DNA of 22,178 bases, from positions 1 through 22,178 of IMG/VR virus record IMGVR_UViG_3300031977_002166; one strand, given 5' to 3'. This document shows, in pieces, positions 1,921 to 19,636 of the stretch. The DNA is from a virus. The notes below the pieces were generated by a model. It searched no databases. It saw only the letters and a program-made list of their open reading frames with translations, and was not told the origin of the DNA. The translations under genes and the position numbers were made by a program. Every line of letters starts with the position of its first letter. Position 1 is the first letter of the stretch.

Positions 1921-2093
1921 TGAACTCTATTCGTCCTTTGAACTTTGAGTCAGAACATTGGGACTGGCTCGTAAACCACGAATCACAACTCGTGGAACAT
2001 GAGTCTTCATCGCAAGACTTCTTTGCTGTACTTGACAATATTAGCGCTGCTAATGATATAAACGAAAACCTAGAGGGATCTAACAATGACTAA
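1920..2093 (+). CDS. small acidic protein
   Basis: A 57-residue, very acidic protein (many Glu, Asp, Asn) without Cys or membrane segments. It has a strong ribosome binding site (GGAGGT, 6 bases before ATG) and overlaps both neighbours (1 base upstream, 8 bases downstream). Its 3' third also carries the promoter-like element and palindrome at 2032-2062, so the same DNA seems to encode protein and regulate the next gene. Acidic phage mini-proteins sometimes mimic DNA, but that is only an idea here. Confidence 0.65.
   Translation: MNSIRPLNFESEHWDWLVNHESQLVEHESSSQDFFAVLDNISAANDINENLEGSNND
2032..2062 (+). promoter_or_regulatory. promoter with embedded ATTAG-N5-CTAAT operator, copy 1
   Basis: TTGACA at 2032-2037 is a perfect -35 hexamer, followed by a TATA-rich -10 region (2055-2062; GATATA at a 17-base spacer or TATAAA at 19). 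The palindrome ATTAG CGCTG CTAAT (2040-2054) fills the spacer, the classic place for a repressor to block RNA polymerase. It lies inside the 3' end of the upstream coding region and just before the 2086 gene. Confidence 0.65.
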
Positions 2094-2700
2094 CCAAACT
2101 TTCATCAACCAAGCTTTCTACGCCCTGACCGAATACAACAACTTCAAGGGCAAGACAGCCAGCTACGTTGCTAACCAAGAAGGTGCAACAATCATCGACC
2201 AGTACGTAGAGGGTTTCCTCGCTGCTGTCGAGAACGAAGACGCAGTGGTTCACCGCTTGTCAGTGCTTGGCTCGCTTCAAGACCTCATGAACAAGTGCTC
2301 TTGGAACGCTCGTAAGTTGTTCAAAGCCAACGTCGCTAACCTCGACATGGACAACAACGGCGCACCTTGGGGCCTCGAGGCTACCGAGCGTGTACGTCAA
2401 TTGGTTGACGTCGAGGCTGACAACGAAATCATTCCCAAGATCCTCGAGTCTGACTTCGAACAGCTGCAGTTGGTTCACACCATCCTCAGCCAAACCACCG
2501 GCATCGATACTCCGCTCTACTACTTTGTAGAGACTGAGCGTCAGCCAAACGATGACTGGGTCGACGTGGTCAACGCTACGACGTTCGACGATGCCATGAC
2601 TGCTATGGACAACATCGTGGACAAGCTCAACGAGAAGGCTCGTGAAGACGTACGTGGTTCCGTACGCGACGCATTGGCTGCACTAAAGCAAGCAGCCTAA
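2086..2700 (+). CDS. hypothetical early protein, well expressed by its signals
   Basis: A 204-residue, acidic, largely helical protein without recognisable catalytic motif, Cys cluster or membrane segment. Asn, Asp and Glu are abundant throughout, and the C-terminal 40 residues form a charged helix ending in Lys/Ala. It starts with GAGGG about 8 bases upstream and has the best promoter-like sequence in the window just before it. A strong intrinsic terminator follows immediately, so it can be transcribed as a single-gene unit. Such isolated strong signals often mark an abundant phage protein. I do not recognise the family. Confidence 0.75.
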   Translation: MTNQTFINQAFYALTEYNNFKGKTASYVANQEGATIIDQYVEGFLAAVENEDAVVHRLSVLGSLQDLMNKCSWNARKLFKANVANLDMDNNGAPWGLEATERVRQLVDVEADNEIIPKILESDFEQLQLVHTILSQTTGIDTPLYYFVETERQPNDDWVDVVNATTFDDAMTAMDNIVDKLNEKAREDVRGSVRDALAALKQAA

Positions 2701-2705
2701 CTTCA

Positions 2706-2739
2706 AACCCCGCTGTTCTCTGAGCAGTGGGGTTTTTTT
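2706..2739 (+). terminator. intrinsic terminator
   Basis: A 10-bp stem, AACCCCGCTG (2706-2715) against CAGTGGGGTT (2725-2734) with one G-U pair, a 9-base loop and a run of seven T (2733-2739). It closes the transcript of the 2086-2700 gene. Confidence 0.9.
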
Positions 2740-2762
2740 CTACTAACCACACAGGAGGTGTC

Positions 2763-3065
2763 ATGTTCTTAACTGGTCTTATCGCAGCGTTAGCCATCAT
2801 ATTCCTGCTGCTCAAGTTCAACTTTCGGCGCGTACTTCAGCACGACATCTCGATCGACATCGGGGTGACCATCGTGCTGTGCATGCTGTTTGCCGGTACT
2901 TTCGCGGGCATGATGACCGGCCTCGTGGCTGGCTGCATCATCTCCATCTTTCTCTTTGTATCCAAGAAGCTGTTCGGCTACGAGCGTTTCGGCATCATCA
3001 AGACCGACACGTTTCCGTACCGCAAGTTCGGGTGGATCAGCGTGCCGCCTGGAGGTAAGTCATGA
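2763..3065 (+). CDS. multi-pass inner-membrane protein
   Basis: A 100-residue protein with three likely membrane helices (about residues 2-20, 32-48 and 52-70), then a basic cytoplasmic tail. The ATG at 2763 follows a near-perfect AGGAGGTG site. A longer in-frame start at 2727 lies within the terminator T-run and is rejected. It is the first gene after the terminator and overlaps the next by ATGA. No family recognised; a role in membrane or exclusion functions is possible but not shown. Confidence 0.75.
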   Translation: MFLTGLIAALAIIFLLLKFNFRRVLQHDISIDIGVTIVLCMLFAGTFAGMMTGLVAGCIISIFLFVSKKLFGYERFGIIKTDTFPYRKFGWISVPPGGKS

Positions 3066-3259
3066 TCAAACTATCTGAGCTTGACTGCTACGAAGTCATC
3101 ACACCACGAAGCAAGTACCTAGACCAAGAAACCTACTGCTTTATCTCGGGCGATGCAGAAGACCCGTGTGCCCGTGTCATCGAAGTTACCTTCTATGAAG
3201 AGTCAGGGACCGTGGAGTTCGCCGACGTTACCGACTTGCACAAGGAGAAGTACAGATGA
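3062..3259 (+). CDS. hypothetical small protein
   Basis: A 65-residue soluble, acidic protein with a beta-rich pattern, no motif recognised. GGAGGT precedes the start, and it is joined to both neighbours by 4-base ATGA overlaps, indicating coupled translation. Confidence 0.7.
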   Translation: MIKLSELDCYEVITPRSKYLDQETYCFISGDAEDPCARVIEVTFYEESGTVEFADVTDLHKEKYR

Positions 3260-3745: not shown

Positions 3746-3960
3746 GTAACGGAGATATTGTCGTAAACCTTTTGTTATCACCCACCGAGATTAACTTCTT
3801 GCAAGTAGCAGTTGATGGCCTCATCGACGTACAACGCGACGTCATTCATGACTGCGCTATCTCGTCTGACCGTGACGTCGTCGAGTCAGGTAAAGACGCA
3901 ATCGAACGGCTGCAAGCTGGCCTCGGTCTTAAGCACACACTCGAGGTTTACAACCTATGA
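3742..3960 (+). CDS. hypothetical small protein
   Basis: A 72-residue protein with a predicted helix-turn-helix-like arrangement of helices but no recognised DNA-binding signature. The start at 3742 is supported by GAGGAA and by the ATGA overlap with the upstream stop. The in-frame ATG at 3694 lies inside the upstream gene and lacks a site. ATGA overlap downstream. Confidence 0.7.
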   Translation: MSNGDIVVNLLLSPTEINFLQVAVDGLIDVQRDVIHDCAISSDRDVVESGKDAIERLQAGLGLKHTLEVYNL

Positions 3961-4151
3961 AGATCGACCTCAGCGAGCGTGACATAGACAACCTCATCTA
4001 CATCTGTCTCTGGGTGGCTCGCGAGGCAGAGGAAGGCACCATCAAACCGGAGGAGGCTACCGACAACCTCGGTTACTTAAACACGTCCAGCGCTATTAGC
4101 CGGACTAATGAATTACTTGAAACCCTGTGGAGGAACCAAACCCATGAGTAG
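3957..4151 (+). CDS. hypothetical small helical protein
   Basis: A 64-residue acidic, helical protein that starts in an ATGA overlap with only a distant GAGG as ribosome binding site, so it probably depends on coupling. Its 3' end contains operator copy 2 (4095-4109) and overlaps the next start by 8 bases. No family recognised. Confidence 0.65.
   Translation: MKIDLSERDIDNLIYICLWVAREAEEGTIKPEEATDNLGYLNTSSAISRTNELLETLWRNQTHE
4095..4109. promoter_or_regulatory. ATTAG-N5-CTAAT operator, copy 2
   Basis: ATTAG CCGGA CTAAT, an exact copy of the repeated palindrome, lies inside coding sequence 35 bases before the 4144 gene and about 230 bases before the AAA+ ATPase gene. No convincing -35/-10 pair is seen around it. 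It may act on a weak internal promoter or as an accessory site. Confidence 0.5.
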
Positions 4152-4353
4152 AGAACCATGCTCCATCACCGACGACCCCTACAACGACTACTCAGATTAC
4201 GTGGAAGGGAAGGGCGTGTACGCGTCTCGCTACGAAGACGAGGACAGAGCCTATGAGGAGGAGCGTCAGAAAGAAATCGACAACGCATCACCACTTGAAC
4301 TGTACGCACGATTCATCAATTCACTAACCGAGAACATCAACAATGCAAAATAG
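4144..4353 (+). CDS. hypothetical acidic protein
   Basis: A 69-residue protein, very rich in Asp, Glu and Tyr in its first half, with a helical C-terminus. GGAGG lies a suitable distance upstream of the ATG. It overlaps the AAA+ ATPase gene by 11 bases, so it could be translated with it. No family recognised. Confidence 0.65.
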   Translation: MSREPCSITDDPYNDYSDYVEGKGVYASRYEDEDRAYEEERQKEIDNASPLELYARFINSLTENINNAK

Positions 4354-5347
4354 AGCAATCAGCCCATCCGACCTAGTCAAAGAGTTGCGTGCAAACGCAC
4401 TCGCTGACATCCCATCTATGATCTGGGGTCCGCCTGGCATTGGTAAGTCAGACATCGCCTACCAGTTCGCATCGTCAATGAACGCAAAGCTGTTCGAGCT
4501 GCGCGCCAACCTGTTCGATCCCGTCGACGTACGCGGTGGACTCAAGGTTGTCGAACAAGAAGACGGTACGTATCGCACACGGTACGGCGTTCCCGAAGAT
4601 TACCCAGACACTAACTACCACGGCAATGTGGTTCTCTTCATTGACGAGCTACCCAACGCACCCAAAGCAACACAGAACGCGCTGCTGCAGCTGTTGCTTA
4701 ACAAGCGCATCGGTACCTACGAGCTACCTGCCAACACCATCATCATTGCCGCAGGTAACCGGGCCCAGGACCGTGCAGCTGTACACGAGATGCCGACACC
4801 AGTCCGCAACCGTTTCGCACACTACACACTCGAGCCAACCGTTGACGACTGGGTCAAGTGGGCCATGAACCACGGAGTAGATGACAGCATCACGAGCTTC
4901 ATTCGTATGCGCCCATCACTGCTGCACAGCACCGACGGTTCAGACTACGCGTTCCCGTCACCTCGTACGTGGACCATGCTCGATCGCAAGCTGCCTCATA
5001 TGTCTGACGACTTCTACGGTTGTGCATCGATGATCGGTGATGGCCCTGCTGGTGAGTACCTCAGCTACCGTGCCATCTACAAAGATATGCCTGACATCGA
5101 TCAGATCATCGAGAAGCCCAGCACATCGACAGTACCCACTGACACATCAGTGCTGTTCGCTGTATCGGGTGCGCTTGCATCACGTGCCAGCAAAGACAAC
5201 TTCGACAGCATCATGCGGTTCGTTCGACGCATGCCTGCCGAGTACCAGGTAATCACGGTACGCGACTCAATCGCCAAGCAACAAGACCTGGTCACGCTTG
5301 ATTGCTTCACCTCTTGGACCACAGACAACGCAGCAGTATTGCTGTAA
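4343..5347 (+). CDS. MoxR-type AAA+ ATPase
   Basis: A 334-residue AAA+ ATPase of the MoxR/RavA/CbbQ kind. Visible motifs are Walker A GPPGIGKS (29-36), Walker B VVLFIDEL (96-103), sensor-1 Asn at 139 in IIAAGN, and Arg residues at 155-157 (VRNRF) in the arginine-finger position. The size fits the family. MoxR ATPases act as chaperones on a partner with a von Willebrand A (VWA) domain, inserting cofactors or remodelling complexes by ATP hydrolysis. Here a metallopeptidase/VWA protein is encoded two genes downstream (6055-7152), so the pair likely works together. The ribosome binding site is weak, and the gene overlaps the previous one. The target in phage infection is unknown. Confidence 0.88.
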   Translation: MQNRAISPSDLVKELRANALADIPSMIWGPPGIGKSDIAYQFASSMNAKLFELRANLFDPVDVRGGLKVVEQEDGTYRTRYGVPEDYPDTNYHGNVVLFIDELPNAPKATQNALLQLLLNKRIGTYELPANTIIIAAGNRAQDRAAVHEMPTPVRNRFAHYTLEPTVDDWVKWAMNHGVDDSITSFIRMRPSLLHSTDGSDYAFPSPRTWTMLDRKLPHMSDDFYGCASMIGDGPAGEYLSYRAIYKDMPDIDQIIEKPSTSTVPTDTSVLFAVSGALASRASKDNFDSIMRFVRRMPAEYQVITVRDSIAKQQDLVTLDCFTSWTTDNAAVLL

Positions 5348-5357
5348 GGAGAATCAC

Positions 5358-6053
5358 ATGGCTTCAGTACGCATGAGTCGAGAGCTTCGTCGCGAAATTG
5401 CACACAACGCACGGCATGCATTTATTAAGACCAACCCCGAGCCAGAAATGGCAACAACAGACATCGACTGGTTCGTTGACAAGGTTCGCAACTGTGACGC
5501 GCAATCAACACTAGCTCGCATCCGAGGGCTTGCCGATGACTTTCCACGGATGCACACCCGCTACTACGGCAGAGACACAGACAACTGTTTCGAAGCTAGA
5601 TTTCCACACATCAAACGCATTACTAGCTTTTACATTGATGACCGACACCTGGTTGATAACCAATGTATCTCTTTTCGTCTCAACGCGCCTGTGTCGTTGT
5701 ACAGCTACGACAGTGATGACACGCTGCACTTCAGCACTAGCTGTTTCTCCGATGCTGATCGCATTGAAGCAGCCAGTCGCATCAACGCATTCATCGAACG
5801 TCAGCGCGAACACAAAAACAAACAGGTTAATTACAACAACCAGATCGACAATCTTCTGGATCACTACTCAACGCTCAAGTCATTGCTGACCGCATGGCCA
5901 GCAGGCGAAGCGTTTGTGCCTGGGCATTACTTGCAGAAGATGCACGAGAAGGTCACGCGCAAACAAGCTGCTGTTCGCATCAAAGAAGATCTTCAGTTCG
6001 ATGAAGCAACTATCAATCAGGTCGTTCTAACCAGCAAAATGATGGGAGTCTAA
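5358..6053 (+). CDS. hypothetical protein in the MoxR/VWA module, possibly Nmad5-like
   Basis: A 231-residue protein between the MoxR ATPase and the VWA protein, with AAGGAGA just before the ATG at 5358. The N-terminus (MSRELRREI) and the C-terminal LLTAWPAGEAFVP stretch (about residues 177-192) resemble the ends of proteins I recall under Nmad5 (nucleotide modification associated domain 5), a phage family of unclear activity. The similarity is from memory and weak. The centre is beta-rich, then a basic helical segment. Its fixed place between ATPase and VWA genes suggests it is the client or a third subunit. That is inference. Confidence 0.5.
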   Translation: MASVRMSRELRREIAHNARHAFIKTNPEPEMATTDIDWFVDKVRNCDAQSTLARIRGLADDFPRMHTRYYGRDTDNCFEARFPHIKRITSFYIDDRHLVDNQCISFRLNAPVSLYSYDSDDTLHFSTSCFSDADRIEAASRINAFIERQREHKNKQVNYNNQIDNLLDHYSTLKSLLTAWPAGEAFVPGHYLQKMHEKVTRKQAAVRIKEDLQFDEATINQVVLTSKMMGV

Positions 6054-6054
6054 T

Positions 6055-7152
6055 ATGTCTGCAGAGAGCCTACTGCTCAAATCACGCACCGCACTGCTCA
6101 TGGAGCAGCCGTTCTTCGGCACGTTAGCTGTACGGCTCAAACCTGTAGCAGACGACTCAATTAAGACTGCGGCCACGGATGGCCAACGTCTTATCTACTC
6201 ACCCAAGTACATCGAGAAGCTCAGCCCGCACCAGCTCAAAGGTCTCATTGCACACGAAGTAATGCACTGCGTGTTCAACCACATGACACGTAGACAGGAC
6301 CGTGACCCAGAAATATGGAACTCGGCGTGCGACTACGCCATCAACAGCCACCTCATTGACTGTGGCTTCATCCTTCCGGATGGCGGACTAGTCGACAAAC
6401 AGTTCAGCGCTCTTACCGCTGAAGAGATCTACAACCGCATAGCTAACGAGCCACCCAAACCCTGTGCGTGGGGCAAGGTGCTCGATGCAGGTGTCGGCAC
6501 CGTCAATGGTAAGTCCAACGCAGCGCTCGAGTCTGATTGGCAAGTGGCTGTCACCGAAGCCGCCGAGGTTGCAAAGGGGCGCGGTAAGCTGCCGGGTAAG
6601 CTTGCTTCATTCATCAGTGAAATCATCAACCCCAAGGTTGACTGGCGTACGGTGCTTTGGCCGTTCTTCACCAATCTCATCAATGACGACTACTCCTGGC
6701 GCAAGCCTAACCGCGCATACATCAGCGAAGACGAGTACTTGCCAAGCATGCACAGCGAAGGTTGCGGACCTGTTGCTGTCGTAATTGACGCAAGTGGTAG
6801 CACCGCCGATTACTACCAACAGTTCGCATCAGAACTCGACGCTGTACTCGGAGACGTGAACCCCGAGTCAGTGCAAGTTGTCATGGGTGACACAAAGGTC
6901 ACTGACTCGTTCACGCTAGACCAAGGATCACGACTCACGGAGCTAGAAATCAAGGGTGGTGGGGGCACAGTCCTCGCTCCGCTGTTTCAGCAAATTGACG
7001 ATCCCAACAACGCAGCAGTTATCTGCCTCACCGATCTTGAGATGCATGACTGCGACTGGGAAGACATCGTCAAGCTGGACCTGCCACCTACATTATGGGT
7101 CTCAACTAACCGCACATTGGAGGCACCAATCGGTTCTACTATTTACATTTAA
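6055..7152 (+). CDS. DUF2201-type metallopeptidase / VWA domain protein
   Basis: A 365-residue two-domain protein. The N-terminal part has a zinc-peptidase signature HEVMH (67-71) followed by FNH (76) and the conserved ACDYAIN segment (91-97), as in the putative metallopeptidase domain of DUF2201 proteins. The C-terminal part is VWA-like, with a MIDAS set of DASGS (245-249), Thr305 after four Gly, and Asp327 (LTDLEM). Length and order match the DUF2201 family, which often pairs with MoxR ATPases, as here two genes upstream. GGGAG precedes the start. Whether it cleaves peptides or only uses the fold for binding cannot be told, though the HExxH motif is intact. Confidence 0.85.
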   Translation: MSAESLLLKSRTALLMEQPFFGTLAVRLKPVADDSIKTAATDGQRLIYSPKYIEKLSPHQLKGLIAHEVMHCVFNHMTRRQDRDPEIWNSACDYAINSHLIDCGFILPDGGLVDKQFSALTAEEIYNRIANEPPKPCAWGKVLDAGVGTVNGKSNAALESDWQVAVTEAAEVAKGRGKLPGKLASFISEIINPKVDWRTVLWPFFTNLINDDYSWRKPNRAYISEDEYLPSMHSEGCGPVAVVIDASGSTADYYQQFASELDAVLGDVNPESVQVVMGDTKVTDSFTLDQGSRLTELEIKGGGGTVLAPLFQQIDDPNNAAVICLTDLEMHDCDWEDIVKLDLPPTLWVSTNRTLEAPIGSTIYI

Positions 7153-7170
7153 TATTAGCTGGGCTAATTT
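7142..7170 (+). promoter_or_regulatory. ATTAG-N5-CTAAT operator, copy 3, with weak promoter
   Basis: ATTAG CTGGG CTAAT (7154-7168) starts two bases after the stop of the VWA gene. The inner bases also pair (ATTAGC TGG GCTAAT). TTTACA (7142-7147) and TAATTT (7165-7170) are a plausible -35/-10 pair with 17-base spacing that the palindrome would cover. It stands before the small genes leading into the DNA polymerase. Confidence 0.6.
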
Positions 7171-8055: not shown

Positions 8056-9863
8056 TTGATGTGGTTCTCGACTTTGAGACTTACTTTGACACCAAGGTAA
8101 GTCTCACCAAGCTCACCACCATGGAATACATCAAGCACCCCATGTTCAAAGTGTGGGGTGTGGGCATCAAATACGACGATGCCGAGACCATGTGGTTTTC
8201 CGAAGATGAGGTAGAGGACGAGCTGGCATCTATCGACTGGGGTGACGTGCGTCTTATTTGTCACAACACCCCTTTCGATGCCTACGTGTTAACGCAGTAT
8301 TACGGTTATATGCCCGCATACTTTGCTGACACAGCAGCTATGGCGCGAGGCCGATACCCCGGCCAATCCGCACGCCTTGCAGATGTAGCTGTGCGCTTGT
8401 TTCCAAACGATGAAACTATGCGGAAGGGGGGAGAACTGGCGGAAGCTAAAGGTACCTACGACCTCTCCCCCGAACAGGACGAAATGCTCGGACGCTACTG
8501 TGTCCAGGATGTTGACCTGACGTATGCAATCTGGCGACGACTGTTGCTGGATTACCCCAAGTCTGAATTAGACTTGATCAATCTGACTACGCAGATGTTC
8601 GTAGACCCAATCATTGAAATAGACAAAGACACATTAACCAAATATCACGAATCACAAGTCAAGAATCGAGAAACACTAATAGAAAATGCAGGTATAGACG
8701 CCAAAGTACTTAGCTCCAACGATAAGTTCGCTGACTATCTACGCACTATTGACATCGAGCCACCCGTCAAACGCAGTACGAACACAGGTAACTTGATACC
8801 AGCCTTTGGTAAGAACGATGCGGGTTGGAAGCAGATGTGTGCAATGTATCCAGAGCACGACAATCTGTGGAAAGCAAGAGAAGCCGTGAAGTCACGCATC
8901 AGTGAGACGCGTGCGCAACGCTTCCTCGATGCTGCATTAGACGACAACAGAATCCCAGTACCGTTGCGCTATTACGCAGCACACACCGGACGCTTTGGTG
9001 GTACTGAAAAACTAAACATGCAAAACCTTCCCAGGGGAGGGGAGCTTCGTCGCTGCTTAGTCGCACCAAAGGGCCACCTGGTTTACGTTGCTGATTTAAG
9101 CAACATCGAAGCCAGGATGCTCGCGTATGTTGCACGGCAAGACGACCTCATTGAGCAGTTCGCACGCGGTGACGACATCTATTCAAACTTCGCCAGCGTC
9201 ATTTACGAAAAACCAATTAACAAACGTGACAATCCCACCGAACGCTTTGTTGGTAAAACCGCGATCCTTGGTCTCGGTTACGGTATGGGGGCACGTAAGT
9301 TCCAAGCCACTTTGAAGTCGGGGGCTATGGGACCACCTCAAGAATTTACCCTTGAGGCCGCAATGGACATCGTTGGTAAGTACAGGACCACTTACAACAA
9401 CATTGCGCTGCTGTGGAACCGGCTTCAAGACATGCTCCAGATGACCTTGCATCACGAAAATTGGGGCATGAACTACGGTCCGTTCTTCACGGTTGAAAGA
9501 AACGGATTCCGGCTGCCAAATGGTATGTCTCTTTCGTATGAAGCACTGTCGCCAGAAGCGACAGGTGGCTTCTCTTACATGTCACGTGGCAAGAAAGAGT
9601 ACACCTACGGTGGCCGCATAACAGAAAATCTCATCCAAGCACTGTCTCGCATTGTTATCACGGACAGCATGCTTCGGTTACAAAAGAAGATTAACGGACG
9701 GGTCGCACTCACCGTCCACGACGAAGTAATTATTATTGCAGCTAATACTAATCCAGATGCTACAATGAATACGATCATTGACGATCTATGCATTGCCCCA
9801 GAGTGGGCACCGGATCTTCCATTAGCTGCCGAAGGCGGATACGACACGGTTTACAGTAAGTAG
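8052..9863 (+). CDS. family A DNA polymerase with 3'-5' exonuclease
   Basis: A 603-residue replicative polymerase. The exonuclease domain has DFE (7-9), the HNTPFD segment (71-76) and YCVQD (149-153), the DEDDy catalytic set. The polymerase domain has motif A YVADLSNIEAR (345-355, Asp348), motif B with Lys402 and YG (410-411) and motif C HDE (556-558). No 5'-3' exonuclease domain, as in T7-type phage enzymes; the length is slightly short for the class. The start is TTG at 8052, supported by GGAGG 5-6 bases upstream and a TTGA overlap with the previous stop. There is no ATG before the essential DFE motif. With the primase-helicase at 10090 it forms the phage's own replication core. Confidence 0.95.
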   Translation: MIDVVLDFETYFDTKVSLTKLTTMEYIKHPMFKVWGVGIKYDDAETMWFSEDEVEDELASIDWGDVRLICHNTPFDAYVLTQYYGYMPAYFADTAAMARGRYPGQSARLADVAVRLFPNDETMRKGGELAEAKGTYDLSPEQDEMLGRYCVQDVDLTYAIWRRLLLDYPKSELDLINLTTQMFVDPIIEIDKDTLTKYHESQVKNRETLIENAGIDAKVLSSNDKFADYLRTIDIEPPVKRSTNTGNLIPAFGKNDAGWKQMCAMYPEHDNLWKAREAVKSRISETRAQRFLDAALDDNRIPVPLRYYAAHTGRFGGTEKLNMQNLPRGGELRRCLVAPKGHLVYVADLSNIEARMLAYVARQDDLIEQFARGDDIYSNFASVIYEKPINKRDNPTERFVGKTAILGLGYGMGARKFQATLKSGAMGPPQEFTLEAAMDIVGKYRTTYNNIALLWNRLQDMLQMTLHHENWGMNYGPFFTVERNGFRLPNGMSLSYEALSPEATGGFSYMSRGKKEYTYGGRITENLIQALSRIVITDSMLRLQKKINGRVALTVHDEVIIIAANTNPDATMNTIIDDLCIAPEWAPDLPLAAEGGYDTVYSK

Positions 9864-9865: not shown

Positions 9866-10063
9866 ATGCCAAGACTTGTTCTGTCAAGAAAGACCAAACA
9901 AGGCGTTACAATCCACCGTAACGGCCAGGTCTTGGCTAGTCTGGAAGTCCACAAAGTTGATCGCAATGCGGTCACTTTAGCGTTTGTCGCAGACGCTGAC
10001 ATAAAAATAGACCGCGACGAGATATATAGCAAAACCAAGGATACTGATACCTCAGAGTATTAG
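9866..10063 (+). CDS. csrA: CsrA-like RNA-binding regulator
   Basis: A 65-residue protein aligning over its length with bacterial CsrA/RsmA (about 61 residues). The LVLSRK start (4-9) matches LILTRR, and IDRDEIYSK (48-56) matches VHREEIYQR, keeping Arg8 and Arg50 that correspond to the RNA-binding Arg6 and Arg44. CsrA dimers bind GGA motifs in mRNA leaders and block or stabilise translation. The gene lies 2 bases after the polymerase stop with only a weak ribosome binding site, so it is probably coupled. A copy inside a replication operon suggests control of phage mRNAs or interference with host Csr regulation. That role is inference; the family call is strong. Confidence 0.85.
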   Translation: MPRLVLSRKTKQGVTIHRNGQVLASLEVHKVDRNAVTLAFVADADIKIDRDEIYSKTKDTDTSEY

Positions 10064-10073
10064 TAGCGCTATT
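10059..10073. promoter_or_regulatory. ATTAG-N5-CTAAT operator, near copy (7th)
   Basis: ATTAG TAGCG CTATT differs from the consensus at one base of the right arm. It overlaps the csrA stop and lies 17 bases before the primase-helicase start, the same kind of position as the exact copies. No clear -35 hexamer. Confidence 0.4.
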
Positions 10074-10089: not shown

Positions 10090-12597
10090 ATGCGCGTGAC
10101 GTTTCTGGAGGCTGCCAACGGCCTTCGTCTGACAAAGCACTACGCCAAAAATCAAGTTACTGCTTATCCATACGTTAAAGAAGTTACAAGTCACGAACAT
10201 ACGATTACTCTCGATGACGCCGGTATCTCATCACTTTATAACCTGATCAACGCACATGGCAGCACAGGCCATTGCATGTTGAAAGGCGGACTCAAACGTC
10301 AGCTTGTACAAGAAAGCCGCAAAGGACAAAGCGAACGCAACGCACTTAACGGACTCTTAGTCCTTGACGTTGACGGATTACAATTGCAACGCACGCTACC
10401 TGGCAGCGGTTTGACTGCAGACGTAGTCCAGGCGCTTTCCGAACAAATTATTTCAGCACTTCCTGCAGCCTTTCACGACGTTTCTTACATCTCCCAAGCT
10501 TCGAGTAGCCTCGGGCGCAAAGGAGACAAAGTGTCGCTGCACATCTTTATGCTTCTTTCGGTACCGATCCCACCGAAAGCGATTAAGTATTGGCTGCAAC
10601 ACATCAACTTAACAACCGAGCTGTTTCGATCACAAATCGACCTCAGTTCAAACGGACAGTCGCTCAAGTACCCACTCGACGTGTCCCTAGCTGACAACTC
10701 AAAACTTATCTTTATCTCAACACCGACTTTTGCTGATGCAACTGACAACCCTTTCGTCGATGATGCAGACAGACTCATCTTAGTAAAACGCGGTAACGCA
10801 ACAATCGATCTCGCAGCGGAAATGCACAACATCAACCCAGAGATCACGCATCAGCTATCGCTCAAGTTAAAAGATGAGTTACGTGTCGACGCAGGCATGA
10901 AGCGTAAAACCGGTAAGCTGCAGACAATGACTGTCGATAATCAGATCCAAGAGGTTCTCACCAACCCTGACCGCATGAACATCACAGTCGTCGACAGCCA
11001 AAGCTTCCCGTTCGTACGATGCAACATAAACAACGGAGACAGCGCCGCGTACTACTTCAACGCTGAACGCCCCGTGTATATGTACAACTTCAAAGACGAG
11101 CCAATCTTCGAAATTGAAAAAGCTGACCCTGACTTCTACAAAAGTATCTTCGACTTGTTCGAGGAAGAGCTAAAGAAAGTAGGAAAGACCTGCTACCCAG
11201 TTGTGCTTCGTGACTACCACACAGATATGTACTTCAACGGTGTGTTCGATCCAAACCTCAACCAATTCACCGATGACTACCCGCTCACGCAAACAAGCAG
11301 AGCAAGTGTCGAGTCGTTCATGTTGAGCCACGGACGTGCAGCACCAGACTTCATTCCTGACGCACGTATCGTTTTCGATCCAACTAAAAACGATGTTGCA
11401 GTAAATTTGAAAGAGGTGCCGTACTACGTCAACACGTTTACGCGCAGCAAGTACATGCTCGAACACGAGCCGCCCGAAACACCCTTTGAGTTCGGACACG
11501 CAAGAAACCTTCGCGATGTAACTCCAAACATCTATCTTTTGCTAGATCACATACTGGGTAACGGGCAAGAAGAACTAGAGCGGTTTATAAACTGGCTCGC
11601 ATATATTTATCAGACACGTAAAAAGACAAAGACCAGTTGGGTGCTTAGCGGTACGCAAGGCACAGGTAAAGGTTTGTTCTACAACACAGTTATCAAACCA
11701 CTATTTACCGAACAACAAGCGCCAATGCGATCGTTAGAATCGATCGAAGAGCAGTTCAACCTGTTCATGCGCAACGCGTTGTTCCTGGTGGTCGACGAGT
11801 TTCATATGGGATCAGCCAAAACTGGTTCCAACAAAATGGCAGATAAGCTCAAGAACTGGATCGCCGAGAAAAACATCTCGATCCGAGCTATGCGAAGCAA
11901 CAGCGTCCAGATCGAAAGCTACTGCAACTTTCTGTTCTTCACGAACAGACCAGATGCAGTCAAAATCGACACTGGGGATCGACGTTACAACATCGCCCCC
12001 AGGCAAGAGGTAAAGCTTCTTGAAGCGCACCCCGAGCTGCCGGACAAGTTGTACAACATGGACCACGAATTACGAATCTTTGCTGGTGTACTCAGCACCT
12101 TCAAATACGAAGAGCGATTCATACATGTGCCGATCGACAACCGCGCCAAAGAACAAATGCGCACTGTCGGTATGTCTATATTCGAAGAGTTCTGCCAAGC
12201 CATACACAAAGGCAACCTCGAGTTCTTTACAGACATACTCGACATCAATGTCGGAAACGTCACATTTGCAAACGAGATAATGACAGCCCAGCGGCTAGTC
12301 AAACACTGGATATCGGAAGCCAATGATCCGTACGTGATCCTACCTACAGAACACTTACGGACCATCTTCCATATCCAAACAGAACAGAACCCACGGCTTA
12401 GCCAGCGTGAGTTCGTAAAACGGCTTGCGAAATTTGGCCACGAGCCAGTGCGCAAGCGACCATTTGCTAGGAAGGGCGACCCTAATCAGTCCGTTGTTCG
12501 TGGTATCCAGACCAAGTGGCACATCGAACCTAACGAATTAGACATGCTAATAGAAACCTACTATGCACCCGAAGATCATAAGCTCTTGCGTGCCTAA
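10090..12597 (+). CDS. primase-polymerase / SF3 helicase fusion
   Basis: An 835-residue replication protein. The N-terminal part shows archaeo-eukaryotic primase traits: VLDVDG (91-96) supplying the DxD acidic pair, and SLGRKGDKVSLHIF (140-153) with the conserved His. The C-terminal part is a superfamily 3 (D5/DUF5906-type) helicase with Walker A GTQGTGKG (521-528), Walker B FLVVDE (565-570) and the sensor Asn and GDRRY segment (619-633). It would unwind the fork and make primers for the polymerase encoded just upstream. GGAGGG precedes the ATG. Operator near copy 7 sits directly upstream. The middle region (about 270-480) is unassigned. Confidence 0.88.
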   Translation: MRVTFLEAANGLRLTKHYAKNQVTAYPYVKEVTSHEHTITLDDAGISSLYNLINAHGSTGHCMLKGGLKRQLVQESRKGQSERNALNGLLVLDVDGLQLQRTLPGSGLTADVVQALSEQIISALPAAFHDVSYISQASSSLGRKGDKVSLHIFMLLSVPIPPKAIKYWLQHINLTTELFRSQIDLSSNGQSLKYPLDVSLADNSKLIFISTPTFADATDNPFVDDADRLILVKRGNATIDLAAEMHNINPEITHQLSLKLKDELRVDAGMKRKTGKLQTMTVDNQIQEVLTNPDRMNITVVDSQSFPFVRCNINNGDSAAYYFNAERPVYMYNFKDEPIFEIEKADPDFYKSIFDLFEEELKKVGKTCYPVVLRDYHTDMYFNGVFDPNLNQFTDDYPLTQTSRASVESFMLSHGRAAPDFIPDARIVFDPTKNDVAVNLKEVPYYVNTFTRSKYMLEHEPPETPFEFGHARNLRDVTPNIYLLLDHILGNGQEELERFINWLAYIYQTRKKTKTSWVLSGTQGTGKGLFYNTVIKPLFTEQQAPMRSLESIEEQFNLFMRNALFLVVDEFHMGSAKTGSNKMADKLKNWIAEKNISIRAMRSNSVQIESYCNFLFFTNRPDAVKIDTGDRRYNIAPRQEVKLLEAHPELPDKLYNMDHELRIFAGVLSTFKYEERFIHVPIDNRAKEQMRTVGMSIFEEFCQAIHKGNLEFFTDILDINVGNVTFANEIMTAQRLVKHWISEANDPYVILPTEHLRTIFHIQTEQNPRLSQREFVKRLAKFGHEPVRKRPFARKGDPNQSVVRGIQTKWHIEPNELDMLIETYYAPEDHKLLRA

Positions 12598-12616
12598 GAC
12601 TATTAGTTATACTAAT
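12586..12616 (+). promoter_or_regulatory. promoter with ATTAG-N5-CTAAT operator, copy 4
   Basis: ATTAG TTATA CTAAT (12602-12616) lies between the helicase stop and the nuclease start. TATACT (12608-12613) inside it is a good -10 box, with TTGCGT (12586-12591) 16 bases upstream as a -35 candidate. A protein bound to the palindrome would cover the -10 box. The leader that follows has two GGA motifs (12629 and 12633) near the nuclease ribosome binding site. Confidence 0.6.
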
Positions 12617-14786: not shown

Positions 14787-14789
14787 AGT

Positions 14790-14804
14790 ATTAGCTGTGC
14801 TAAT
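14790..14804. promoter_or_regulatory. ATTAG-N5-CTAAT operator, copy 5
   Basis: ATTAG CTGTG CTAAT, with inner pairing to ATTAGC TGT GCTAAT, lies in the gap between the GP88-like gene and the helicase. TAATAT at 14801 overlaps the right arm and could be a -10 box. The nearest -35-like TTGAAG (14775) is 20 bases away, longer than ideal. Confidence 0.55.
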
Positions 14805-14816
14805 ATTATGGACCAA

Positions 14817-14834: not shown

Positions 14835-14836
14835 TT

Positions 14837-16183
14837 ATGAAACCGTTCGAGCATCAAACCAAAACCACCGACTTCATACTTCAGAAGCCCGGTGTTCTCA
14901 TTACTTCTGACCCAGGCACAGGTAAAACGCGCAGTGTTATTGATGCGTATTCAAAGCGTCGTTCGGGCCGCATGCTGGTTCTGGCTCCTCTTTCTATCCT
15001 TGAAGCTAGCTGGGCAGATGATATTCGAAAGTTCCAACCCGGCCTCACTTGTTCGGTGGCCTACGCCAAAAATCGACTCGCGGCGTTTAACGATGACACA
15101 GACATCGTCGTCACTAATCACGATGCCGTTAAATGGCTTGCCAAAATGCCCAGCCTACTCGAGTCCTTCGACACGCTCTGCATCGACGAGTTCACGGCGT
15201 TCAAGAACAAAGACAGTCAACGCTCGAAAGCGATGGCGAAAGTTGCAAAGCACTTTGAGTACCGCATTGCTATGTCAGGTACCCCAAACAGCAACACGAT
15301 ACTGGACATCTGGCACCCAGCGTTTCTTGTAGACGACGGCGAACGTCTCGGTGTTCGGTTCCACAGTTTCCGTGGTGCAGTCTGTCAGCCACAGTTCAAC
15401 GGCTTCGCCAACGTGTGGGTTGATCGACCCGACGCACAAGAAATCGTTGCGGCTGCACTCTTCGATATCAACATCCGCTTCGCACTAGAAGAGTGCATCG
15501 ACATGCCTGAGCAGGTTGTGTCAACGCGGCTTGTTGATCTCGACAAAAAGACAATGGCTGCTTACCAGATGCTTGCTGATGACAGTGTCCTGTACACACC
15601 CAAAGGCACAGTCAACGCAATACACGCTGGAGCCAAAGTAAAGAAGCTACTGCAGCTATGCACCGGTGCGGTCTACGACGAGCAGGGTGTAGCACAAGGC
15701 ATACACAAAGAACGCTACGACCTTGTGATGCAGCTGGTGCAGGAGCGCAAGCACTCATTGGTTGCGTTCAACTGGCAGCACGAGCGAGATCACCTTACTG
15801 AACTCGCCGACAAACTATCTATCAAGTACGGCGTTATCGACGGATCAACGCCTGCTAACAAACGCAAAGACATTGTTGATCGCATGCAAGCAGGGCAACT
15901 GCAGGTGGTGTTTGCCCACCCACAATCTGCTGGTCATGGCCTAACCATGACAAAAGCGACATCAGTTATCTGGGCGTCACCCACTTACAACGCTGAGCAC
16001 TACCAGCAGTTCAACCGACGCATCTACCGCGCAGGACAAACCCAGCGCACGGAAGTTATTCGGATTGCAGCAAACAACACCTGGGAGCCAGCAGTGTTCG
16101 ACAAGCTCGAAAGCAAGCTCAGTCGAATGGAAGAGTTACTTGGAATATTGAATCAATCAACGTCACTACGAGAAACAGCATGA
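14837..16183 (+). CDS. SNF2-type superfamily 2 helicase
   Basis: A 448-residue DEAD/SNF2-like ATPase. Motifs are HQ near the start (6-7), Walker A DPGTGKT (25-31), LAPLSIL motif Ia (49-55), DEFT (117-120) as Walker B, SGTP (147-150) as motif III, and a C-terminal helicase domain with SAGHGLTMTKA and FNRRIYRAGQ (motifs V and VI, about residues 355-402). Such phage proteins translocate on duplex DNA and serve replication, recombination or DNA remodelling. The start fits the family; its ribosome binding site is odd (AGGA 2 bases away). The stop overlaps the next start by ATGA. Confidence 0.92.
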   Translation: MKPFEHQTKTTDFILQKPGVLITSDPGTGKTRSVIDAYSKRRSGRMLVLAPLSILEASWADDIRKFQPGLTCSVAYAKNRLAAFNDDTDIVVTNHDAVKWLAKMPSLLESFDTLCIDEFTAFKNKDSQRSKAMAKVAKHFEYRIAMSGTPNSNTILDIWHPAFLVDDGERLGVRFHSFRGAVCQPQFNGFANVWVDRPDAQEIVAAALFDINIRFALEECIDMPEQVVSTRLVDLDKKTMAAYQMLADDSVLYTPKGTVNAIHAGAKVKKLLQLCTGAVYDEQGVAQGIHKERYDLVMQLVQERKHSLVAFNWQHERDHLTELADKLSIKYGVIDGSTPANKRKDIVDRMQAGQLQVVFAHPQSAGHGLTMTKATSVIWASPTYNAEHYQQFNRRIYRAGQTQRTEVIRIAANNTWEPAVFDKLESKLSRMEELLGILNQSTSLRETA

Positions 16184-16545
16184 ATATCAATGAACTAATC
16201 GAACAGCGCGTAAACCTTCAAACACAGATAGATGAACTCAATGCGCAGTTAAAAGAACTCAACAAGCAAAAGGAAGCAAACCAAATCCTTTTGTTTGACG
16301 AGATGGGTAAGCAGGGCGTTACTCGCACCGCAAACGCGATGGCCTCTGTTTCCATAAACGAAACTGTTAAACCAGAAATCGAGTCGTACGACGAGTACAT
16401 CGCCTACGTCCAAGAAACTGGTGATTTCAGTTTATTCACCACGGCACTTAAGCAAGCTCCGTTCCAGGAACTACTTGCTGCAGGTATACAAGTTCCCGGC
16501 CTCAAACCTAGAACATACCGCCGCCTCAACATGCGCAAACTCTAA
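16180..16545 (+). CDS. coiled-coil protein of replication module
   Basis: A 121-residue protein. Residues 1-40 form a strong coiled coil (heptads of Leu/Ile with Glu, Gln, Lys). The C-terminal half (about 65-121) has a conserved-looking block, SYDEYIAYVQETGDFSLF, then VPGLKPRTYRRLNMRKL, a pattern I recall from small proteins beside phage helicases and nucleases. It overlaps the helicase gene by ATGA, so it may be its partner. Function not known. Confidence 0.7.
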   Translation: MNINELIEQRVNLQTQIDELNAQLKELNKQKEANQILLFDEMGKQGVTRTANAMASVSINETVKPEIESYDEYIAYVQETGDFSLFTTALKQAPFQELLAAGIQVPGLKPRTYRRLNMRKL

Positions 16546-16558
16546 GGAATCATTAGAT

Positions 16559-17227
16559 ATGGCAAAAGCACAAGCAATCGCTCTAGTAGCAAACGAAGTA
16601 CCAGCACACGTAATCAATGCAGGCATTGGTCGCGGCAACGAAGACGTCGGTAACGCCCTGGCAATACCGCGCATCAAGCTGCTGCAAAAGATGTCTCCCG
16701 AAGTCGACAAGTACAGCCCCAAGTACGTCGAGGGTGCAGAGCCCGGTGCGTTCATCAACAGTATCACCGGCGAGGTGTACGGTGACGAACTCTACGCTCT
16801 CAACCTCAAGTTCAAAATCGAGTATGTCGTATGGCGTAACCTCGATATCGGTGGCGGCTTGCTTGGTAACTTCACGTCGCAAGCAGAAGCTGAAGCAGCT
16901 GTCGCGGCACAAGAAAAGCCGTCGGACTATGAGATCAAAGACACTCATACACACGTCCTGCTGCTCAAGAACCCGACCACCGGCGAAGTCTCTTCACCCG
17001 TGTTGATGGATTTCACTGTATCCAAACTGCGCACATCACGTGCTTGGAATACACAAATCGCAACCAAGGGTGGCGATCGATTCGCTAGTCTGTGGAAGCT
17101 CAAGTCAATCCCCGTTGAATCACGTACTGGACAACAGTTCATGAACCTCGACGTTGAGTGCCTTGGCTGGACAACAGAAGAGGACTACAAGGTTGCAGAA
17201 GAGTTGTACGAACAGTTCTCTGCATAA
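16559..17227 (+). CDS. hypothetical replication-module protein, possibly ssDNA-binding
   Basis: A 222-residue soluble protein with an ordered beta-rich core, an acidic C-terminus (EEDYKVAEELYEQF) and the opening IPRIKLLQKMSPEV (about residues 36-49), seen in phage proteins beside helicases and nucleases. An acidic tail and this position are typical of ssDNA-binding proteins, but no OB-fold signature can be confirmed by eye. The ATG at 16559 has AAGGA upstream. The next gene starts within 4 bases. Confidence 0.65.
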   Translation: MAKAQAIALVANEVPAHVINAGIGRGNEDVGNALAIPRIKLLQKMSPEVDKYSPKYVEGAEPGAFINSITGEVYGDELYALNLKFKIEYVVWRNLDIGGGLLGNFTSQAEAEAAVAAQEKPSDYEIKDTHTHVLLLKNPTTGEVSSPVLMDFTVSKLRTSRAWNTQIATKGGDRFASLWKLKSIPVESRTGQQFMNLDVECLGWTTEEDYKVAEELYEQFSA

Positions 17228-17230
17228 TGA

Positions 17231-17662
17231 ATGAACGAGCACAGCTTTATACGAGCTGTGCATCGTCGTTTGCCTGCCGATATTCTGCGGTGGAAGATAA
17301 ACGACTCATATGCGGGCGGAGTACCGGATGCGTTTTACGCCGGTGCGGCCCGCTGCCTTTTTGTCGAATACAAGTTTGTAAAAATCCCGGTTCGTGACTC
17401 CACGAATCTAAGAATAGGCTTATCTGAACAGCAAAAGCTGTGGCTCAACAAAATGCACGATCTAGACCAGTTTGTTGGCGTCGTGGTAGGCTCGCAGGAA
17501 AACGCGATTATTTTACTAAATGGCGCGTGGAATCAGTCCATCACCAAAACTACGTTTATGCAGCATTCATCAACTGTTGCTAACGTCGCCGACTGGATTC
17601 ACAGCCATTGCTGGAAACAAGATCATGACCACGAAGAAGGAATCTTCTGTGGCAGCGAATAA
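17231..17662 (+). CDS. VRR-NUC-type PD-(D/E)XK endonuclease
   Basis: A 143-residue nuclease resembling phage VRR-NUC proteins. It shows GGVPD (29-33), FVEYK (44-48) supplying Glu46 and Lys48, and a conserved SEQQ (65-68), in the usual order and spacing of the PD-(D/E)XK core. VRR-NUC enzymes cut branched or flap DNA and may act in Holliday-junction or replication-end processing with the SNF2-type helicase upstream. The ribosome binding site is weak, so translation may be coupled to the preceding gene, 3 bases away. Its 3' end overlaps the XRE regulator gene. Confidence 0.8.
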   Translation: MNEHSFIRAVHRRLPADILRWKINDSYAGGVPDAFYAGAARCLFVEYKFVKIPVRDSTNLRIGLSEQQKLWLNKMHDLDQFVGVVVGSQENAIILLNGAWNQSITKTTFMQHSSTVANVADWIHSHCWKQDHDHEEGIFCGSE

Positions 17663-17981
17663 CCTGCGAAGAATCTGGGATGCTAAAAAAGCCGAGATCG
17701 GAGTCACGCAATCAGAAGCTGCCAAGGAGCTGGGCTGGACCCAGGGTGCTGTTGCGCAATACCTCAACAACATTACTGAGCTTAACGCCTCAGCAACAAT
17801 CAAACTCGCTAACTTTCTGGGTGTAGACCCAAGAGACATCAACCCTGACGCGACAGATGAGTTTCCGTTGTACATCGCCTTCCCCCGCGAAGGAGACGTG
17901 CCGCTAACAATCGACCTATCGCAAAAATACACCGCGCATAAAGAGCGCGATGGCAGCGTCGTACTGACTCCAAAGAAGTGA
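17625..17981 (+). CDS. XRE-family regulator (Cro/CI-like)
   Basis: A 118-residue protein with a helix-turn-helix of the XRE type: VTQSEAAKELGWTQGAVAQYLNN (about residues 27-49) followed by the LANFLGVDP helix (64-72). The C-terminal part is short and lacks a LexA-like peptidase, so it is not a self-cleaving repressor. A GTG at 17649 has GAAGAAGGA 7 bases upstream and is the alternative start; the ATG has no clear site. Its place before attP and int, and overlap with the nuclease gene, suggest the lysogeny switch. It is a natural candidate to bind ATTAG-N5-CTAAT. Confidence 0.85.
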   Translation: MTTKKESSVAANNLRRIWDAKKAEIGVTQSEAAKELGWTQGAVAQYLNNITELNASATIKLANFLGVDPRDINPDATDEFPLYIAFPREGDVPLTIDLSQKYTAHKERDGSVVLTPKK

Positions 17982-18083
17982 CACTTTGTGACAGTTCAAT
18001 ACTAAACAAAGTGAAATAACAGTAACTTACGACCCATCAAAAGTGGCTGAAAGTGTTGGAATTACTAACATCGTGCCAGCCGA

Positions 18084-18115
18084 CGGAGAAAATCCCTCCT
18101 TCTCCGCCAATTTTT
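18084..18115. other. probable attP core: tRNA-Ser 3' end sequence, also a hairpin
   Basis: AATCCCTCCTTCTCCGCCA (18091-18109) is the T-arm, acceptor and CCA end expected for a tRNA-Ser gene, without the rest of a tRNA. It lies 69 bases before the integrase gene. Tyrosine integrases commonly recombine at tRNA 3' ends, and the phage copy restores the gene after insertion. The same bases form a 7-bp hairpin, CGGAGAA with TTCTCCG (18084-18106), followed by a T run (18111-18115), so it may also terminate the XRE gene. Confidence 0.65.
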
Positions 18116-18158
18116 AAACCCCTTGCTATATAAGGCTTTCCGGCGATATCCTCGTCAG

Positions 18159-18172
18159 CTGTGACACAGGAG
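18159..18172 (+). promoter_or_regulatory. integrase leader with CTGTGACA motif and ribosome binding site
   Basis: CTGTGACA at 18159-18166 is an exact copy of the left-end repeat, followed by AGGAG (18168-18172) 6 bases from the TTG start of int. A 7-base match TGTGACA also occurs at 17987, on the other side of the att core. The sites could be regulator operators or integrase arm sites. Confidence 0.5.
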
Positions 18173-18178
18173 TGACAG

Positions 18179-19210
18179 TTGGCTACGATAGTTAATAGAA
18201 ACGGCAAGTTCGTCGTGCGCATCAGGAAGGCAAATTTCAAGCCCGAAAACCGCACCTTTTCAACCCGCACAGCAGCAAAACAATGGGCGCTGCAGACCGA
18301 AGCTGCAATGGACAACGGTTCCTGGGTCTCGGTAAGTGAAGCACGAATCACGGACCTGGACTCGTTGTTCACGCGTTATATCAAAGAAATCCATAGCGTT
18401 AAGCCATTCGGCAAAAGCAAACTCGCAACCGTAAGAAGCACAGCACGAAGAGTCGGGCACTTGCGTCTTGCAGACCTGTCTCCTGACTTTGTTTTGATGT
18501 ATGCAAAACAGCGTGCCAGGGAAGTACGACCGTCGACGCTCAACCAGGAGCTCACTTACTTCGCACAAGCTATCGATGTAGCACGGACCCTGTGGAACGC
18601 ACCACTCAAAGACAACCCTGTTCGCGCAGCCATGGGTGTTATGTCTCAGCTCAATATGATTCAAGGAAGCAGGAAACGTGAACGACGACCCACGGATGAC
18701 GAACTAGAACTGTTGTTCGAGCTAGCAGGTGACAGCTGGATCGGGCCTATGATCAAGATTGCTGTGGAAACTGGGCTACGTCAGAGCGAAATCCATCGCC
18801 TGGAATGGAGCGACATAGACTTTGACCGTGGTACGTTGCTCATCAGGGACCGAAAAGACCCGAAGAAAAAAGAGGGTAATCATCAGCTATTACCCCTACT
18901 TCCGGTCACGAGAGAGACGCTCCTACGTGAAAAGCAGCAGAGTAAGCAGACCGGTAGGGTGTTCGAGGACGTTCAGCTCGCGGCCTCTATCAGTGATAAG
19001 TTCGCCAAGCTCACCAAAAAAGGCGGAATCATCGACTTACGCTTCCATGACCTACGTCACGAAGCGATAAGCCGAATGTTCGAGCGGGGGATGAGTATCG
19101 AACAGGTCGCTGCAATAAGTGGGCACAAAACATGGACTAACTTGCGACGCTATACTCAATTAAGTCATCAGTCGCTATCGCTTGCTTACGAAAAGCCCCT
19201 TCAACAATAG
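18179..19210 (+). CDS. int: tyrosine-type integrase
   Basis: A 343-residue site-specific recombinase. Catalytic residues in order are Arg201 (GLRQSE), Lys226, His290 and Arg293 (HDLRHE), His316 (GHKT) and the nucleophile Tyr325 (RRYTQL). The N-terminal arm domain (1-50) and core-binding domain (54-150) have the usual size. It inserts the phage genome at a host site, here probably a tRNA-Ser gene, given the attP just upstream. The start is TTG at 18179 with AGGAG 6 bases upstream and no ATG nearby. The 3' end overlaps a minus-strand gene by 74 bases. Confidence 0.96.
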   Translation: MATIVNRNGKFVVRIRKANFKPENRTFSTRTAAKQWALQTEAAMDNGSWVSVSEARITDLDSLFTRYIKEIHSVKPFGKSKLATVRSTARRVGHLRLADLSPDFVLMYAKQRAREVRPSTLNQELTYFAQAIDVARTLWNAPLKDNPVRAAMGVMSQLNMIQGSRKRERRPTDDELELLFELAGDSWIGPMIKIAVETGLRQSEIHRLEWSDIDFDRGTLLIRDRKDPKKKEGNHQLLPLLPVTRETLLREKQQSKQTGRVFEDVQLAASISDKFAKLTKKGGIIDLRFHDLRHEAISRMFERGMSIEQVAAISGHKTWTNLRRYTQLSHQSLSLAYEKPLQQ

Positions 19211-19382
19211 CTGCGACTTGTGTGGTTGGAAACAGATACTTCTTACCGCGTTTAACGTACGGAATATCCAACTTATTCGCGTACAGTTGGTTGTAGAGAG
19301 TGGAGCGCTGAACCTTCAACACCTCCGCAAGCTCTGATAAGTCCATAAACGGACCGTACTTATCAAGCATCCACTCAGCCAT
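19137..19382 (-). CDS. small HTH protein, excisionase-like
   Basis: An 81-residue protein whose residues 12-50 match the MerR/AlpA-type helix-turn-helix used by excisionases and small phage regulators (SELAEVLKVQRSTLYNQLY, then YVKRGKKYLFP). Such proteins bend DNA and act as integrase directionality factors or transcription regulators. It starts with AGGAGGT upstream on the minus strand and overlaps the DUF3310 gene. Its 3' end runs 74 bases into int on the other strand. The Xis role is inferred from fold and position. Confidence 0.75.
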   Translation of the reverse strand: MAEWMLDKYGPFMDLSELAEVLKVQRSTLYNQLYANKLDIPYVKRGKKYLFPTTQVAAIVEGAFRKQAIATDDLIEYSVAS

Positions 19383-19596
19383 TCTCGTTTACCTCCTGTA
19401 TCAATCTATCTAGGTACCACCTCGCCTTTCGCAGATCTTCAATGGGCGCATTTTTGTAGCGCCAACGGTGTAAGTATTTTTTGATGTTCCCGTCTAAGTA
19501 GTACTGGAAACCGTCGCCCAAGTTGTCTTTCAAGTACTCAATGCACTCAATCGAACCTTGGTTGTAGTGGGGTGGCTTATTTACTGCGTCCTGCAT
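19375..19596 (-). CDS. DUF3310 family protein
   Basis: A 73-residue protein with the DUF3310 pattern: PPHYNQGSIECIEYL at the start, GNIKKYLHRWRYKN in the middle, and a helix DLRKARWYLDRLI. Common in phages of many hosts; proposed nucleotide-related roles are unproven. First gene of a two-gene minus-strand unit preceded by operator copy 6, with AAGGA about 10 bases upstream of the ATG. The length is the usual one for the domain alone. Confidence 0.88.
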   Translation of the reverse strand: MQDAVNKPPHYNQGSIECIEYLKDNLGDGFQYYLDGNIKKYLHRWRYKNAPIEDLRKARWYLDRLIQEVNENG

Positions 19597-19621
19597 AATC
19601 CGTAATCCTTACGCATCAATT

Positions 19622-19636
19622 ATTAGCAGAACTAAT
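19622..19636. promoter_or_regulatory. ATTAG-N5-CTAAT operator, copy 6 (minus-strand unit)
   Basis: ATTAG CAGAA CTAAT lies 26 bases upstream of the DUF3310 start, on the minus-strand transcript. On that strand TATATT overlaps the palindrome as a possible -10 box, with a weak TTTAGT 17 bases before it. It places the minus-strand HTH/DUF3310 unit under the same control as the plus-strand genes. Confidence 0.55.

Follow-up and report, generated by a model that had tools for sequence, protein, structure and literature searches.

The 22,178-nucleotide (nt) stretch analysed here, positions 1 to 22,178 of IMG/VR virus record IMGVR_UViG_3300031977_002166 and hereafter the window, is all the sequence of its own phage genome that entered the analysis. 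It carries replication genes, a tyrosine integrase, an excisionase-like gene and a gene for a short protein of the XRE family (Table 1), and scattered among these genes is a two-fold symmetric element, ATTAG-N5-CTAAT. Seven exact copies are present where 0.01 would be expected, and dinucleotide-preserving shuffles contain at most one copy, none of them reaching seven. Among all 5-base-pair (bp) dyads with gaps of 0 to 15, this one is the sole outlier in the window (log10 Poisson of about -15.3, with the runner-up at -5.8). There are also two near copies, at 9732 and, with one mismatch, at 10059. With its flanks the full element is 17 bp, TATTAG-N5-CTAATA. A preliminary description of this DNA had listed six of the exact copies and the one-mismatch copy and had judged the motif to exceed chance; all of these copies are present, the exact copy at 12537 and the near copy at 9732 extend its list, and the excess is stronger than it reported. 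Here we propose that the phage's own XRE protein is very probably a lysogeny repressor of the lambda CI type and that ATTAG-N5-CTAAT is its operator, placed singly at many promoters.

Table 1. Candidate operators and accompanying genes of the window
Feature	Position	Strand	Context
Copy 1, ATTAGCGCTGCTAAT	2040..2054	+	In a TTGACA/GATATA spacer; 31 nt upstream of ATG 2086 (gene of unknown function)
Copy 2, ATTAGCCGGACTAAT	4095..4109	+	Within the end of open reading frame (ORF) 3957-4151; followed by a small ORF and a MoxR-like AAA gene
Copy 3, ATTAGCTGGGCTAAT	7154..7168	+	13 nt ahead of ORF 7182, leader of the polymerase operon
Near copy	9732..9746	+	Exact TATTA-N7-TAATA at 9731-9747; in the DNA polymerase ORF, directly after the HDE motif codons
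Near copy, ATTAGTAGCGCTATT	10059..10073	+	Ahead of primase-helicase start 10090
Copy 4, ATTAGACATGCTAAT	12537..12551	+	Within the 3′ end of the primase-helicase ORF
Copy 5, ATTAGTTATACTAAT	12602..12616	+	25 nt upstream of the PD-(D/E)XK nuclease start; includes -10-like TATACT
Copy 6, ATTAGCTGTGCTAAT	14790..14804	+	32 nt upstream of the SNF2-type helicase
Copy 7	19622..19636	-	25 nt upstream of the minus-strand DUF3310-excisionase pair
Apparent single operon behind copy 6	14837..17981	+	SNF2 helicase, DUF7307-like ORF, ORF 16556-17227, VRR-NUC-like ORF 17231-17662, XRE (from gene layout)
XRE/HTH_3 protein, 118 amino acids (aa), proposed repressor	17625..17981	+	Recognition helix TQGAVAQYLN
cggagaaaatccctccttctccgcca, tRNA-Ser 3′ end-like	18084..18109	+	Directly ahead of the integrase; read from the sequence
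Tyrosine integrase	18179..19210	+	PF00589, E 2.7e-22
HTH_17, excisionase-like protein	19137..19382	-	Profile match
DUF3310 protein	19375..19596	-	First gene of the operator-led minus-strand unit

Most operons of the window have a copy 13-34 nt upstream of their start codon. The preliminary description had likewise placed most copies just before gene blocks, and its labels hold for the nuclease, the SNF2-type helicase and the minus-strand unit, but others were wrong. Copy 3 leads a 71-aa ORF and then the polymerase (8052), not the primase-helicase, which is instead preceded by the near copy at 10059, and copy 2 is followed by small ORFs, the MoxR-like AAA gene (4343) and a VWA/DUF2201 gene, not by the polymerase operon. 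Copy 1 does lie within a -35/-10 region, as had been suggested, between TTGACA (2032-2037) and GATATA (2055-2060), 17 bp apart. The tRNA-Ser-like stretch is likely the attP core; ARAGORN finds no complete tRNA there. The MoxR-like AAA ATPase and the DUF2201 metallopeptidase/VWA protein (4343-7152) form a pair within the replication region that is kept in about 30 relatives.

Relatives were collected both through the primase-helicase, giving 64 uncultivated loci, and by a scan with the XRE alignment alone, giving 80 loci; since most contigs are fragments, the absence of a gene was scored only where its region is in view. In the primase-fetched set the motif is found in about half of the loci, at homologous places and down to about 51% primase-helicase identity. 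Whole-contig searches yield up to 10 ATTAG copies per genome (the maximum in the 59-kb relative G002), against none for a reversed-pattern control. A variant, TAGTA-N7-TACTA, occurs 12 times in G018 and 13 times in G025, and some other primase-fetched relatives carry neither form.

Conservation of sites upstream of the same genes in related phages, the lack of which the preliminary description had named among the outcomes that would count against it, is what the scan of relatives shows. A site precedes the nuclease in 36 of 58 genomes and the SNF2-type helicase in 38 of 60, and lies within 140 nt upstream of the primase-helicase in 23 of the 56 relatives with the start in view. Copy 1 has a counterpart in G002 (at 19331, ahead of the homologous gene), copy 3 is kept in G001 and G002, and counterparts of copy 7 (G025:17096, L042:15085) stand before the DUF3310-excisionase operon even where the gene order differs. 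No counterpart of copy 2 was seen in G002, and copy 4 may be accidental because it recurs only in the close relative L103. Virion genes of relatives are also preceded by sites, namely a gene of the internal virion protein family phrog_511 (G012) and one for a conserved 124-aa protein (five genomes), as is the integrase in a few. The earlier view of a regulon of replication genes is therefore right for the replication operons but too narrow, as the excisionase operon belongs to the regulon too and, among relatives, so do virion genes.

These phages stand far from cultivated ones. A megablast of the window against isolated phages gave no match, and the nearest isolates by primase and SNF2 searches, KPP25-like phages and Aeromonas phiA008, share 32-38% identity. 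A scan of genomes with XRE returned one 10.5-kb contig of a gammaproteobacterial metagenome-assembled genome and one weak Psychromonas match, which is insufficient for naming a host, and no integrated prophage copy. A literature search found no paper on regulation in this phage group. Two repeat families were noticed among the relatives: ATTGC-N7-GCAAT occurs 16 times in L167 and L168, an apparent array unrelated to the operator, and L012:13869-14640 holds an array spaced in multiples of 126 bp with a TTACC...GGTAA dyad.

The distribution of the motif follows the XRE gene. In most of the 80 XRE-fetched loci the top-enriched dyad is ATTAG-N5-CTAAT, a result not independent of ancestry because these loci belong to the same phage lineage. 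After dereplication, 50 XRE-positive genomes could be compared with nine lacking an intact XRE (XRE-negative): exact copies number 173 in 979 kb of the former and 6 in 299 kb of the latter, five of these in G004. At least two exact sites are present in 37 of the XRE-positive genomes, and at least two sites of some TAnTA-N7-TAnTA class in 42 of them, compared with one of the nine XRE-negative genomes. Besides G004, seven XRE-negative relatives are devoid of sites and an eighth retains just one; in the primase-fetched set the motif is missing from contigs that have neither XRE nor integrase. On a tree of SNF2 proteins the XRE-negative lineages are nested inside positive ones, requiring five changes of XRE state, and at the nuclease promoter of G007 and G014 a TATACT-like -10 element is retained while the dyad is lost (ATTAGCTATACTGAC, ATTGGTTATACTGCG).

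The sequence of the site changes together with the protein. XRE proteins of the ATTAG group have a recognition helix like TQGAFSQYLN, whereas the sister clade of G018 and G025 has KQSNFSHYIAN or GQSNFSHYIAN and, on a single contig, as many as 13 copies of TAGTA-N7-TACTA placed at the same genes. At half-site position 3 most relatives have T, L166 and L167 have A, and G018 and G025 have G; L053, with helix NQSLFSHYIAN, has apparently TAGTAC-N5-GTAC-like sites. At three places (G025:1026, G025:6959 and L067:877) TAGTA-N7-TACTA encloses AGGAGG and ends 0-2 nt before ATG, so that operator and Shine-Dalgarno sequence are merged.

The positions of the sites are conserved and their spacing is exact; they occur together with XRE, are lost with it and differ in the clade whose recognition helix differs. 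All of this fits one regulator acting at many promoters, as first suggested, and the XRE protein at 17625, then the favoured candidate, is the one whose presence, loss and helix the motif tracks. The other candidate named at that time, a host regulator such as an SOS or growth regulator, would account for dispersed promoter palindromes, which are typical of host regulons, but we consider it highly improbable because the motif follows the phage's own gene, disappearing where XRE is absent and altered in the clade with an altered XRE. The excisionase-like HTH_17 protein is itself DNA-binding and usually encoded near XRE; that it is the binder is likewise most unlikely, as L021 has XRE and sites with no detectable excisionase, L009 has an excisionase and neither XRE nor sites, and a rigid two-fold operator is better suited to a CI-type dimer.

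The XRE protein matches PF01381 (E 2.2e-9), and among solved structures it is closest to lambda CI N-terminal domains (E 7e-8), with 3kz3 and 1lmb as the best PDB sequence matches. In most relatives a second, beta-rich domain follows the helix-turn-helix (HTH). An AlphaFold model of the 193-aa XRE of L149 (predicted local distance difference test, pLDDT, 93) combines such a C-terminal domain with a CI-like N-terminal domain, which superposes with Z 12.5 on 3kz3 and 11.8 on the operator complex 1lmb; the shorter window protein is modelled at pLDDT 80. Whole-length fold matches include lambda repressor, at high root-mean-square deviation, and no S24 peptidase (PF00717) match was found in 48 XRE proteins. 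Lambda Gln44 contacts A2 of the operator half-site; its equivalent here, Q40, is invariant, and the second half-site base, A, is common to the T, A and G classes. In PHROG the hits are transcriptional repressors or regulators, and most of the annotated relatives in phages are named as CI or prophage repressors. Six relatives (L020, L021, L058, L062, L063 and L012) have a short XRE of 85-86 aa in which a CxxC-like cysteine pair in the tail replaces the usual C-terminal domain.

The geometry of the sites suits a protein target on DNA. In the 50 XRE-positive genomes the 173 copies at N5 compare with no more than 12 at any other gap, a rigidity expected for a protein dimer. Sites are two-fold and lie mostly 13-45 nt upstream of start codons, with median distances from site centre to start of 38 nt for nuclease and SNF2 genes and 32 nt for primase; so short a leader should leave the operator overlapping the promoter or next to it. 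At the offset proper to a -35 element, TTG stands in 20 of 104 sites where 1.8 would be expected; the window's own SNF2 site has its TTG at a different offset. An oriented-logo promoter signature looked clear at first but is taken as no more than suggestive, since the flanking AT is symmetric (50 versus 51 of 104) and TTG at -12 is largely from SNF2 sites. Beyond copy 1 the evidence for -35 elements is suggestive only.

A dyad in a 5′ leader could also act as RNA, forming a hairpin that serves as an attenuator or as the target of a phage CsrA-like protein. The window encodes such a protein between polymerase and primase (9866-10063; PF02599, E 7e-8), its gene occurs on 49 of the contigs, whether or not these have XRE, and adjoins the polymerase in most relatives, and some relatives have the Shine-Dalgarno sequence inside the dyad (G025:1026, G025:6959). 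We nevertheless rejected this reading as hardly credible: a hairpin loop would tolerate lengths other than five, GGA occurs in only 8 of 173 loops, the stem amounts to five A-T-rich pairs, and the CsrA-like gene persists in XRE-negative phages without the motif.

One site is embedded in coding sequence. The near copy at 9732, about 130 nt upstream of the CsrA-like ORF, is the window's instance of a dyad kept at this place in many XRE-positive relatives. After the HDE motif the polymerase of XRE-negative phages reads HDEIVIVASDQNPDATM or similar, with no dyad, whereas many XRE-positive phages read HDEIVLISQANNPDATM or HDEIIIIAANTHPDATM; the residues that differ are the ones whose codons form ATTAG-N5-CTAAT or TATTA-N7-TAATA, with two registers offset by one codon. 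Here a binding site seems to shape the sequence of a conserved enzyme.

XRE keeps company with integrase and excisionase in most genomes with the region in view, while a detectable integrase is absent from 8 of the 9 XRE-negative genomes. In G004 both genes are broken: an internal deletion has taken the recognition helix out of its XRE, where similarity persists only over the first ~28 codons and the last ~36, and the integrase is truncated to a 99-aa fragment. With five sites still in place, this genome reads as a recent loss of lysogeny. A Cro-like role, in which XRE would bind the same sites in the lytic phase to time or dampen early genes, would suit the place of XRE in an early operon that lies behind one of the XRE operators, with no dedicated constitutive promoter identified for it. 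We regard this role as unlikely, considering the company of integrase and excisionase, the excisionase operon as a target in itself, the joint decay in G004 and the repressor annotations of XRE relatives.

Several observations weigh against a lysogeny repressor acting through these sites. L021 (a 30.7-kb contig) and L012 (22.6 kb), both with the short XRE, have no integrase in view, which would also suit a Cro-like role. L131, L053 and L012 are XRE-positive and have no exact copy, though some such genomes have degenerate sites. L166 and L135 share the recognition helix of the ATTAG group and yet their sites have drifted; the case of L166 implies that residues beyond the helix contribute to specificity. 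The tree holds only about five changes of XRE state, and an independent-pairs test, with 3 pairs and p not below 0.25, was underpowered. The case for -35 elements convinces only in part, as TTG occurs mainly at SNF2 sites, where it also falls in conserved coding sequence.

From the computed motif, its positions, spacing, conservation and association with XRE, we infer the following course for the proposed CI-type repressor. An XRE dimer would bind the single operator at each of several promoters, those of replication operons, of the excisionase operon and, in relatives, of virion genes. With its centre typically 30-40 nt ahead of the start codon, each operator would cover part of the promoter or border on it; repressor sitting there would keep RNA polymerase out, and in the prophage state lytic genes and excision would be shut off together. 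As the last gene of the operon behind copy 6, XRE is probably autoregulated and would limit its own synthesis. No operator adjoining the XRE gene and no divergent cro was found in the window. In the window's sister clade, TATTA-N7-TAATA lies about 126 nt upstream of the XRE start, within the preceding ORF (G002:34114; L070:14114), a possible autoregulatory site that is absent from the window.

More tentatively, these proteins could represent a CI-type family beyond the compact lambda switch, with dispersed single operators, no divergent cro and no self-cleaving domain, hence perhaps a route of induction other than SOS. The drift of half-site position 3 (TATTA, TAATA, TAGTA) would then mark several immunity groups, and the operator built into the polymerase gene would have altered the residues after HDE.

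With this analysis, a phage family represented here by metagenomes alone gains a probable lysogeny repressor together with its regulon. If true, one protein made by the phage is probably enough to turn off replication and excision as well as some virion genes. As a first approximation of an immunity-group code, the half-site base and the recognition helix indicate which phages should repress each other. Repressor-less lineages show operator decay, and G004 seems to represent a genome shortly after the loss, so that the passage from temperate to virulent life may be readable in wild phages.

The operator consensus of lambda is 17 bp, TAtCACCGCcaGTGaTA (PMC10742460). As in lambda, the operator here is 17 bp and two-fold, the XRE N-terminal domain aligns with that of CI, a beta-rich domain follows the HTH in most relatives, and the half-sites, TATCA in lambda and TATTA here, differ by a single base. 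In contrast to lambda, whose operators form two clusters and are grouped between divergent repressor and cro genes, single operators are dispersed over many promoters with no divergent cro seen, the 48 XRE relatives have no S24 peptidase match and the window protein is only 118 aa long. Dispersed operators are found in P1, whose C1 repressor has 22 of them over the genome (PMC8546580); one repressor would likewise serve many sites here, although the P1 operator is asymmetric (17 bp, ATTGCTCTAATAAATTT), P1 is a plasmid prophage, and C1 and XRE are set side by side by description only. In Bacillus subtilis SPbeta the master repressor MrpR acts on a 15-bp element, SPBRE, which was first spotted in silico and is spread over about ten promoter regions (PMC10516654), a similar use of a short element; MrpR, however, is related to tyrosine recombinases (PMC10516654), whereas the protein here is of the XRE/CI type. 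L5 and other Cluster A mycobacteriophages have many dispersed stoperators, with repressor and site consensus varying by subgroup and defining immunity groups (PMC6550527). The variation between subgroups is alike, but L5 sites are asymmetric, oriented with transcription, mostly off promoters and block elongation, whereas those described here are two-fold and mostly just before operons. Repression through dispersed operators is thus already known from P1, SPbeta and Cluster A, and the phages described here would work alike, the differences being a CI-type domain and operators that are single and two-fold.

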